Assembly: GCA_039815145.1 (NCBI GenBank)
Contig: JBCBZW010000022.1
Coordinates: 1-58,240, forward strand
DNA length: 58,240 nt
Reading direction: 5' to 3'
Origin: Pseudomonadota bacterium
Lineage (GTDB): Bacteria > Pseudomonadota > Gammaproteobacteria > Steroidobacterales > JBCBZW01
Part shown: piece after piece, positions 21,034 to 23,087 of the stretch
How positions within the stretch are numbered: position 1 is the first letter of the stretch
Layout of the letters: each line of letters begins with the position of its first letter
Made by a program: the position numbers and the translations under genes
Notes under the pieces: model-generated
Database searches by the model: none
What the model was told of the DNA's origin: nothing
What the model saw: only the letters and a program-made list of their open reading frames with translations

Positions 21034-23058
21034 TCATCGCCGCAACACCTGTGCTACGACGTCGGCGAAGTGTGCGCGGGTTAGCGTAGGCGCCTCGCTC
21101 TCAGCACCATCACCTTTCAACGCAATCAGGCAACCGTTGGCGCCGGCCGCCTTACCGGCCGCCAGCAAAGGTGTGGCCAGGGCCGCCGTGCCGCCCAGGG
21201 CGGCGCCGGGATCGATCAGTACGGGGCAGTCCGTCTCGTGACGAAGGCGGGCGACGGTGCCGAGATCCAAGGTCGGTTGCGTCGCGTCGTCCGCGGCGGC
21301 GGCGCCCGCTTCACACAGCAACACCTGTCGATTGCCTTCCGTGCGCAGGATGTTCAAGGCGCGCAGGAGTTCGCGCATGCTGCTCGACCGCCCGCGCGTG
21401 AGAATCACCGGACGCGCCGTACGACCGACCGCCCGTAACAGGTCGAGATGTTCCATGTGGCGGCCGTCCAAACGCAGGGCATCTGCCGCGGCCGCCGCTT
21501 CGGCCACGTGTTCCACCCGCATCACCGTGGCGACCAGGGGCAGGCGAGTGGCGCGCGCTGCCTCGGCCAACCATTGCAGCTGCCGCCGCCAACGTTGGGC
21601 ATCGACGGCGAGGGCGTTGTCCTGCAGTCCACTCACGAGGGCGCTGGCGCCCGCTTGAGCAGCCTGCTCAGCCTCGCGCAGGGCGGTTTGTTGAGTGGTC
21701 TCCTGCGCGGGGCCGGCCATGATGGCGAAACGTTGCGCATCCACGGTCATCGGGCCGATCCTCACGCTGACCAAATGAGCCGATTCGGTAGCGGGTACCG
21801 TGGAGGAGTGACCTGCCGAAGTCGCCGCCGGTTCGCTGCCGACCCAGCGCTCGGGCGCCACCGGGGTGGCGCGAATCTGATGCGATGGGTAGCACCCGAG
21901 TACCTTCAGGTAGCGGGTCACACGCGCCAGGCGTCGCAAGGTCTCGCGCATCGCTGGGGCATCGACGTTGCCCTCCACATCCACGTAGAACATCTCCTCC
22001 CAGGGGTTGCCCATGATGGGGCGCGACTCCAGCTTGCACATGCTCAAGCCCGCATCGCGAAAGAGGGTGAGTGCCTCCACCAGCGACCCGGCCGTGTCCG
22101 CTGTGGCCATCACCAACGAGGTCTTGCAGGCGATCGGCAGGGGCACCGCGCGCGCTTGGCGGGCCACGCACAGAAACCGCGTCACGTTTTCCCGCTGGTT
22201 CGCGATGTTCGTCGCCAGGGGCACGAGGCCGTAGCGCTCGCCCGCTTGCCGGCTCGCAATCGCACCCGCACGCTTGTCGGTGTCCTGAGCGGCGCGACGC
22301 ACGGCCTCCGCCGTCTCCAGGGACTCCTGGCGACAGTGGCGTAGGCCCGCCACGAACTGACTGCACTGGGCGAAGCCCTGCGGGTGGGCGTAGATGCGAT
22401 CGAGGGACTCCAAGCTGGTGCCCGGCGGCGCGAGCAAGCAGTGGTCGATCTGCAGGGTCTCCTCGCCGATCACATTGAGGGGCGTGTGCATGAGCAGGTC
22501 GTAGACCTCGTTGATACCGCCGGAGGTGGTGTTCTCGATCGGCAGCATGGCGTAATCCGCGGCGCCGGACTCCACCGCCTCCACCGCTTGGGAGAAGGCG
22601 TCGAAGCCGAGGAATACGAGGCGGTCGGCGCGGCTCGCGAAGTGCTGTTGCACGGCGACCTGGCTGTAGGAGCCCGTGTCGCCCTGGAAGGCGACCCGAA
22701 TGCTCGGGGCGTCCACCGCCGGGTCGTTGCTCTCCACCAGTCGCGATTGTTGCAGCCGAACTGAGTCGTCGATGATCAGATGAAAGACGCGGGTGACATA
22801 GGGCGCGTCGAGACCGTGCGATTTGCCGCGTTCGATGAGTCGGACCAGCAGGTCTTCTTCCCGTTCCTGGTCGCGGATCGCGCGCCCGGAGGTGGCCTTG
22901 GTTTGCGCGATGCCCACGGCGAGTTCACGGCGCCGGGCGAGCAGCTCGATGAGCGAGCTGTCGAGCGCGGTGATCTCATCACGCAGGCCGGTCAAGGCAT
23001 CGGGGGTAGGTGGGGCTGATGGGTCTTGTTTGCCGTCGACGGTCGGTTTGTCGGCCAT
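21034..23058 (-). CDS. pheA: Chorismate mutase / prephenate dehydratase with C-terminal pseudo-DAHP synthase domain
   Basis: 674 aa, nearly twice normal PheA. Residues 20-108 form an AroQ chorismate mutase with Arg, Lys and 'DQEREED' residues intact. Residues 119-300 form prephenate dehydratase with 'NVTRFLC' (TRF at 293-295). Residues 312-392 form the ACT domain with the Phe-binding 'ESRP' (344-347). After a 50-residue linker, 443-674 match type I-beta DAHP synthase in order and spacing. Key residues are changed: metal Cys of GPCSVE is Ala ('GPAQET'), the KPRTSPYSFQG loop is missing, LKRG is 'LTRG', and the metal His of DPSHATG is lost ('DPGAALG'). That domain is probably non-catalytic. ATG 23058 is preferred over 23076 because AAGGA lies 8 nt before it. 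Makes phenylpyruvate for phenylalanine. Confidence 0.92.
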   Translation of the reverse strand: MADKPTVDGKQDPSAPPTPDALTGLRDEITALDSSLIELLARRRELAVGIAQTKATSGRAIRDQEREEDLLVRLIERGKSHGLDAPYVTRVFHLIIDDSVRLQQSRLVESNDPAVDAPSIRVAFQGDTGSYSQVAVQQHFASRADRLVFLGFDAFSQAVEAVESGAADYAMLPIENTTSGGINEVYDLLMHTPLNVIGEETLQIDHCLLAPPGTSLESLDRIYAHPQGFAQCSQFVAGLRHCRQESLETAEAVRRAAQDTDKRAGAIASRQAGERYGLVPLATNIANQRENVTRFLCVARQARAVPLPIACKTSLVMATADTAGSLVEALTLFRDAGLSMCKLESRPIMGNPWEEMFYVDVEGNVDAPAMRETLRRLARVTRYLKVLGCYPSHQIRATPVAPERWVGSEPAATSAGHSSTVPATESAHLVSVRIGPMTVDAQRFAIMAGPAQETTQQTALREAEQAAQAGASALVSGLQDNALAVDAQRWRRQLQWLAEAARATRLPLVATVMRVEHVAEAAAAADALRLDGRHMEHLDLLRAVGRTARPVILTRGRSSSMRELLRALNILRTEGNRQVLLCEAGAAAADDATQPTLDLGTVARLRHETDCPVLIDPGAALGGTAALATPLLAAGKAAGANGCLIALKGDGAESEAPTLTRAHFADVVAQVLRR

Positions 23059-23087
23059 AGCCGGGGTCCTTTTCATGGGCGAGCGTC

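Follow-up and report, generated by a model that had tools for sequence, protein, structure and literature searches.

The pheA gene described here lies in a stretch of 58,240 nucleotides (the window; positions 1 to 58,240 of contig JBCBZW010000022.1, assembly GCA_039815145.1) from a gammaproteobacterium of the order Steroidobacterales. It is one intact gene of 674 codons and encodes a four-domain protein in which the chorismate mutase (CM), prephenate dehydratase (PDT) and ACT domains of PheA are followed by a barrel related to type I-beta 3-deoxy-D-arabino-heptulosonate 7-phosphate synthase (DAHPS). The barrel site is apparently dead, its metal ligands and substrate loop having been replaced, and selection appears to have retained the barrel all the same, so that it does not look like a decaying tail. 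We favor, with confidence that stands near the midpoint, a model in which this former DAHPS has been kept as a non-catalytic structural or allosteric platform of PheA. New here are 27 such fusions in seven families, three with all eight DAHPS motifs that we examined and the rest with graded losses.

The fused barrel, its lost site and its constraint

By profile the tail belongs to the DAHPS family, as the earlier note on this DNA had proposed, and placement outside the family fails. The NCBIfam model for type I-beta DAHPS, TIGR01361, matches residues 431-651 (4.7e-34; 117.9 bits, below the curated cut-off of 267.75), and Pfam DAHP_synth_1 matches residues 441-642 (1.2e-17; 64 bits, above the cut-off of 25.5). 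Among solved structures the top sequence matches of the tail are type I-beta DAHPSs (1zco, 1.1e-28). The type II family PF01474 is absent among the Pfam matches of the window protein at E values up to 10, and an origin from KdsA or NeuB was rejected, type I-beta profiles and structures ranking first. An AlphaFold2 model of residues 431-674 is a complete barrel (predicted local distance difference test score, pLDDT, 90; predicted template modeling score, pTM, 0.89); its input, a 19-row alignment in which the window domain was joined by 18 viral-contig DAHPSs, may bias the model towards a barrel. The best match of this model in the Protein Data Bank (PDB) is the I-beta DAHPS 1vs1, with a Foldseek E value of 5.7e-19 and a template modeling (TM) score of 0.89; in VIA the pair gives Z 32.8 and a root mean square deviation of 2.0 over 238 residues.

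The window barrel keeps 42 of the 103 columns that are conserved in at least 90% of 30 canonical I-beta DAHPSs from our class sample, chiefly glycines and hydrophobic residues; five of the 103 precede the barrel, where the window is gapped. The earlier note had read the metal cysteine, the KPR loop, the LKRG lysine and the metal histidine as changed, and alignment with I-beta DAHPSs bears this out for all four; the CERG arginine and the ExHP metal glutamate are replaced as well (Table 1). No element of the barrel departs further from the canonical consensus than the KPR loop, at 9% identity. KPRTSPY is replaced by AVDAQRW at residues 484-490 in our first alignment, a second alignment shifts the loop by a few residues, and neither contains a KPR. 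The aspartate metal ligand aligns, with some uncertainty, with E655. The same catalytic positions are lost in the ortholog from the same genus (genome G001). A scan did not find the ferredoxin-like regulatory domain PF18152 in the window protein.

Alignment of the first three domains with E. coli PheA gives 48% identity (183 identical among 382 columns). Judged by what we take to be the catalytic and Phe-binding residues of the E. coli protein (RRKDRESQ, TRF, GAL and ESRP), the window CM keeps the equivalents of R11, R28, K39, D48, R51, E52, S84 and Q88, the TRF of PDT and the ESRP of ACT are likewise in place, as had been claimed, and GAL reads GSL. The ACT match scores 18.8 bits, under the 27-bit Pfam cut-off, and NF007910 gives the protein 422 bits against a cut-off of 577. 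In domain order and in catalytic and Phe-binding residues the window protein has, as far as its sequence indicates, the character of a P-protein. Pfam and NCBIfam also agree with the proposed order of CM, PDT, ACT and DAHPS-like domains.

To the ratio of nonsynonymous to synonymous substitution (dN/dS; Nei-Gojobori method, NG86) we owe the evidence for selection. Between the window and G001 the ratio is 0.078 for CM, 0.048 for PDT, 0.040 for ACT and 0.49 for the linker; it is 0.10 for the whole barrel and 0.072 for the barrel core (residues 460-647; 95% bootstrap 0.036-0.121), which thus changes about as slowly as the CM part. Helices 2 to 6 are identical at 57 of 59 residues, helix 1 at eight of 14 and residues 584-674 at 70 of 91. 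Dead barrels of another family, f216, gave 0.015, 0.021, 0.031 and 0.005 in the four pairs with an estimate, with 0.013, 0.019, 0.004 and 0.008 for the corresponding PheA parts; two more f216 pairs gave no barrel estimate, their dS being saturated. A pair with intact motifs (G1080 and G1047) has a barrel ratio of 0.13. These values back the suggestion of the earlier note that a DAHPS-like domain has been kept without its catalytic residues.

Table 1. Coordinates of the fusion gene and its parts in the window
Feature	Position	Strand	Basis
Whole gene, CM-PDT-ACT-dead type I-beta DAHPS, 674 aa	21034..23058	-	Open reading frame, Pfam, NCBIfam; start MADKP as in ortholog L008
Shine-Dalgarno-like AAGGA; ATG at 23058 follows after 8 nt	23067..23071	-	Sequence reading
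Chorismate mutase (AroQ) domain, residues 25-104, key residues kept	22747..22986	-	Pfam CM_2 7e-20
Prephenate dehydratase domain, residues 122-301, TRF kept	22156..22695	-	Pfam PDT 4e-53
ACT regulatory domain, residues 320-378, ESRP kept	21925..22101	-	Pfam ACT 0.0014; E. coli PheA alignment
Linker, residues 401-434, fast-evolving; 15/34 identical to G001; dN/dS 0.49	21757..21858	-	Comparison with G001
DAHPS-like TIM barrel without catalytic residues, residues 431-674	21037..21768	-	Profiles, alignment, AlphaFold2 model, structure matches
Most conserved barrel block, residues 476-583, 102/108 identical to G001	21310..21633	-	Comparison with G001
Metal Cys (GPC motif) replaced by Ala451	21706..21708	-	Alignment
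KPR loop replaced by AVDAQR, residues 484-489 (loop alignment uncertain by a few residues)	21592..21609	-	Alignment
LKRG Lys replaced by Thr554	21397..21399	-	Alignment
CERG Arg replaced by Ala584	21307..21309	-	Alignment
Metal His (DPSH) replaced by Ala619	21202..21204	-	Alignment
Metal Glu (ExHP) replaced by Ala646	21121..21123	-	Alignment

Relatives and a graded series of fusions

Taken for a one-off in the earlier note, the fusion is a member of a gammaproteobacterial-type family of 27 fusions, 24 of which came from searches and three from inspection. Within the window's own order a close match occurs in two of 296 sampled genomes, both from the window genus, and none of the 13 PheAs examined from that order has a tail longer than six residues. 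The class sample of 369 genomes, of whose loci only some were read, gave no further fusion; among loci L001-L084, PheA and a DAHPS barrel share a frame only in the window genome and in G001. The phylum sample yielded another PheA-DAHPS, a 667-residue protein in G1025, whose order holds fusions in 22 of 247 genomes among matches at E 1e-28 or better, a lower bound because three of ten PheAs taken as unfused in that order carry tails. These three tails, of 236-294 residues in G1065, G1044 and G881, are very degenerate; a profile of dead fused barrels matches them at 1e-42 to 1e-17 and a profile of canonical enzymes at 1.5e-29 to 2.7e-10 (E values for a search space set to 100 sequences). Genome contigs gave one distant relative only, a first scan of viral contigs gave none, and no plasmid record among 96 matches spans 80% of the query at a single site.

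The DAHPS motifs of the fusions decay by degrees. Three of 24 aligned fusions (G1094, G1080 and G1047) keep all eight motifs, and for this reason a trifunctional PheA-DAHPS probably exists among the relatives; the same three lend support to the idea, put forward earlier, that both ends of the aromatic pathway meet in one chain. The G1080 tail scores 391 bits with TIGR01361 (cut-off 267.75), a DAHPS by the NCBI criterion, and all three genomes also carry a separate type I-beta DAHPS. G1050 has lost the cysteine and the KPR loop and has aspartate for the ExHP glutamate, and it keeps RNMQN, LKRG, CERGIR, the histidine and SD. The f216 fusions (n = 12) have lost the cysteine, the LKRG lysine and the histidine, with KPR kept in nine of the 12. 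The window genus and family f207 have lost nearly all of the motifs, the window barrel keeping DP and LxRG. (For this comparison L096, L098, L099 and L101 were dropped as duplicates and five of the 30 canonical class rows were used.) The eight CM residues are kept in all 27 fusions, and the PDT motif reads TRF or SRF. The barrel of G1025 (P0002) carries a warning for annotation: without the cysteine, the histidine and the LKRG lysine it still passes TIGR01361, at 270.8 against 267.75 bits. A scan of two intact fusions, those of G1080 and G1094, did not find PF18152, which the stand-alone DAHPS of G1080 (L142) has, and so the ACT domain of PheA would occupy the place of the DAHPS regulatory domain. 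The order of ACT then barrel recalls the engineered chimera 4grs, in which a regulatory domain is reportedly joined to a bare barrel.

A tree built on 229 columns of the barrel unites the 24 fused rows (support 75/97); the tails of L145, L148 and L150 are absent from the barrel trees. An earlier barrel tree that included columns from the PheA tail gave this group 100/100 and was discounted, because fused-only columns could be kept. Seven signature columns of the fused barrels were chosen without the window genus, and the window has four of them; among 49 non-fused rows, 40 have none, five have one, three have two and one has three.

In the PheA tree the window genus groups with enterobacterial-type PheAs in a clade of 31 rows (100/100) and away from the ten PheAs of its own order in that tree; the window PheA is only 31-36% identical to PheAs of that order. 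This grouping suggests that the window pheA was gained by transfer from outside. Unfused PheAs, that of E. coli included, nest among the fused ones. A single PheA clade of all fused rows is rejected (p value of the approximately unbiased test, p-AU, 2e-5), and the tree needs eight changes between fused and unfused states, at least three of them forced by supported branches; the deepest forks of the 31-row clade lack resolution. A second PheA tree dropped the near copies L107, L109, L110 and L113 and the long or short rows L159, L163, L168, L169 and L171. Two of these, L163 and L169 (genomes G012 and G059, from one family in the window's order), are PheAs on a very long branch that match the PDT-ACT part of the query only.

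The simplest joint reading of the two trees is one gain of the barrel followed by repeated loss of the tail, and we infer a single fusion on these grounds; repeated transfer of a fused pheA, in place of repeated tail loss, would also be compatible with them. A single inactivation compared with several gave a p-AU of 0.163, and the residues lost by G1050 are not the set lost by f216. E. coli PheA may accordingly be read as a shortened form of a larger fusion.

Possible roles of the retained barrel

Under the model that we favor, a type I-beta DAHPS barrel, probably an active enzyme, would have been joined behind the ACT domain of PheA in an ancestral fusion, and one Phe-binding ACT domain between the last and first enzymes would have replaced the ferredoxin-like regulatory domain of the DAHPS itself. 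In the window lineage the barrel would then have lost its metal- and substrate-binding residues, the DAHPS step being left to a type II enzyme, and purifying selection would have kept the folded barrel as a structural or allosteric part of PheA. Such a platform could pack on the ACT and CM parts, set the oligomer and help to transmit Phe inhibition. According to passages of PMC12202928, splitting the DAH7PS-CM of P. gingivalis impairs both activities, and in a model of that protein helix alpha-6 and nearby loops touch the mutase; parts of PMC6435475 describe alpha-6/alpha-7 as the major and alpha-4/alpha-5 as the minor interfaces of type I-beta barrels.

Several findings weigh against this model. 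A full-length AlphaFold run from the single sequence reached a pLDDT of 38, too low to read from it any contact between the barrel and the rest of the protein. Conservation is uneven, with only 26 of 41 residues identical to G001 at residues 435-475, 11 of 14 in helix 7 and nine of 13 in helix 8. The dead barrels of f207 evolve fast (dN/dS 0.27, 0.21 and 0.32 in three pairs), so the dead barrel is not equally needed everywhere. One f216 pair has a barrel ratio some eightfold above that of the PheA part (0.031 against 0.004). Most of the ratios are rough, because dS is about 1 between the window and G001 and near or above 1 in most pairs, which also share members, and part of the constraint could come from selection against misfolding alone. 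The barrel has been dispensable in evolution, since unfused PheAs nest among the fused ones. Finally, the barrel tree was rebuilt after removal of the fastest rows, with f207 (six rows), two KdsA rows and four near copies left out. A free search then separated the window genus from the other fused rows, its branch being 3.6 changes per site long with almost no support nearby; a tree that held all fused rows together had a likelihood 10.85 units above that of the free search (p-AU 0.728).

Among other explanations, the tail might be a useless relic, an in-frame pseudogene, the label that Song et al. 2005 gave the Shewanella one, which persists only because it folds and is harmless. The repeated disappearance of tails among relatives, the faster f207 barrels and the very degenerate tails of G1065, G1044 and G881 would all fit. 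We nevertheless think a relic improbable, for the core of the window barrel has the constraint of a CM domain beside a linker that drifts, the four f216 pairs lie at 0.005-0.031, and the central block is nearly invariant in the genus, although selection against misfolding could account for part of this. Continued catalysis, with residues elsewhere substituting in a DAHPS or another aldol reaction, is far less probable again. The predicted fold is intact, and pseudoenzymes with migrated residues are known in general (parts of PMC10211241); yet the cysteine, histidine, glutamate, substrate loop and two conserved basic residues are gone in both species of the genus, and the genome has a full-length type II DAHPS.

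That type II enzyme, of 456 residues and encoded by a separate gene on contig C14, is the sole other DAHPS candidate in the window genome; besides the tail, the only type I family gene found there is kdsA, between genes read as pyrG and eno. A dead barrel could dock the real DAHPS, one of the jobs that the earlier note had suggested, so that PheA and DAHPS regulate each other, and the partner would then differ in type from the barrel. Type II DAHPS was found in 12 of 19 fusion genomes checked, out of 27 fusions: in both genomes of the window genus and all seven of f216, the two strongly constrained groups, and in G1050, G1080 and G1047. It was not found in the six f207 genomes checked, whose barrels are faster, or in G1094. 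Mycobacterium tuberculosis offers a precedent without fusion in its complex of chorismate mutase with type II DAHPS, described in PMC4281200 and PMC6435475. The match between barrel constraint and type II DAHPS is a lead only, resting on two or three independent clades with constraint measured for part of f216, and the type II enzyme belongs to a different Pfam family from the barrel. With an intact fusion in G1094 that lacks the type II enzyme as well, docking seems to us about as doubtful as a relic.

A ligand sensor, in which the barrel pocket binds phosphoenolpyruvate, erythrose 4-phosphate or an aromatic intermediate and tunes PheA, we rate marginally lower than docking; sensing of aromatic intermediates had also been suggested in the earlier note. 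The LKRG arginine is kept in all 21 non-intact fusions aligned, and the cysteine, glutamate and glycine of CERG in 21, 19 and 21 of them; the RNM arginine is also kept in the window. Against a sensor stand the loss from the window of the metal ligands, the LKRG lysine, the CERG arginine and the KPR loop, the last being the least kept element of all. A broader proposal, which we hold to be no likelier than docking, combines these themes: the ancestor of enterobacterial-type P-proteins, that of E. coli included, would have been a trifunctional four-domain enzyme with the first and last steps of Phe synthesis placed about a single ACT sensor. Its barrel would often have been killed or cut away, and where a dead barrel was kept it would, as a docking or allosteric subunit, couple Phe sensing by PheA to the separate type II DAHPS.

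Whichever role applies, the fusions appear to form a natural series that runs from an apparently active fusion, by way of a pseudoenzyme under constraint, to loss; the pathway is a textbook case of feedback regulation, and the purpose of a kept dead enzyme domain can therefore be asked directly. If we read the tree correctly, E. coli PheA is the cut-down form of a larger regulatory assembly.

Gene layout, genome context and known systems

A frameshift, an assembly error or two separate genes, alternatives to the single gene first proposed, are ruled out by the open frame and by the same start in the same-genus ortholog, where the frame is open too. A scan of the window for Shine-Dalgarno patterns gave 15 matches against 11.3 expected, which is chance level. 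Two genomes represent the family of the window genome in the collection; both have the fusion, flanked by the same neighbors, which we read from sequence as gltB-gltD and, on the opposite side, a TonB-type receptor. A frame on contig C129 reads as the chorismate mutase-prephenate dehydrogenase TyrA, named from its sequence.

Other DAHPS genes came to light during the searches. A second scan of viral contigs found DAHPS-family relatives on 26 contigs of the IMG/VR viral collection (L189-L214); they comprise 19 distinct stretches with identities of 42-61% to a single bacterial type I-beta enzyme, many of them having the usual motifs, and are possible phage-borne DAHPS genes. In the class sample, L064, L066 and L074 have a separate pheA in the same stretch as a stand-alone type I-beta DAHPS gene, neighbors that might have fused in the past. 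Many genomes of the class contain a second DAHPS-like group (L075 and others at about 200-230 bits), mostly of about 370-410 codons, which scores about 1e-62 with the type I-beta model. G1139, whose PheA likewise carries a dead barrel, has a DAHPS-family frame (contig C33, 6628-7401) interrupted by a single in-frame TAA, perhaps a decaying stand-alone copy. Finally, L050 (G334) is a 394-codon frame with a DAHPS barrel and then a chorismate mutase-like stretch (296-393, 33% over 100 residues), the order known from Prevotella and Porphyromonas.

A relative of the window fusion has been described before. Passages of PMC1173090 (Song et al. 2005) report a 'bizarre' aroAI-beta pseudogene fused to PheA in Shewanella oneidensis; like the window gene, this aroQ-pheA-aroAI-beta has the four-domain order with an inactive DAHPS I-beta. 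Among the matches listed from the open-licence PMC literature there is no further account of a PheA-DAHPS fusion, and neither an intact fusion nor constraint is claimed in the portions at hand; the fusion is not mentioned in the available parts of PMC10520331 and PMC555942. The window and S. oneidensis fusions may well descend from the same event, as judged by trees of their relatives, in which the place of the window barrel is unstable. The two differ in several respects. The window comes from a different bacterial order, with only kdsA and the tail found as type I genes, and where S. oneidensis was said to have a pseudogene, the window evidence points to a constrained pseudoenzyme domain. 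If f216 is taken as Shewanella-like, nine of its 12 fusions keep the KPR that the window has lost, whereas the window keeps DP and LxRG.

The P-protein PheA of E. coli (CM-PDT-ACT, 386 aa) shares the first three domains with the window protein and has no barrel. The type I-beta DAHPSs of T. maritima, P. furiosus and A. pernix share fold and family with the window tail, which differs from them in being fused behind PheA and in having neither the catalytic residues nor a detected ferredoxin-like domain. Also comparable are the DAHPS-CM of Prevotella and Porphyromonas and the AroQ-DAHPS of Geobacillus and Listeria (5j6f, 3nvt), in which, according to passages of PMC12202928, an I-beta barrel and AroQ are coupled in one chain. 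As described there, each part of the Porphyromonas enzyme is active, and the two are joined without an intervening PDT or ACT domain; the window protein, unlike these bifunctional enzymes in which an active DAHPS is joined directly to AroQ, has a PDT and an ACT domain between its mutase and an apparently inactive barrel.

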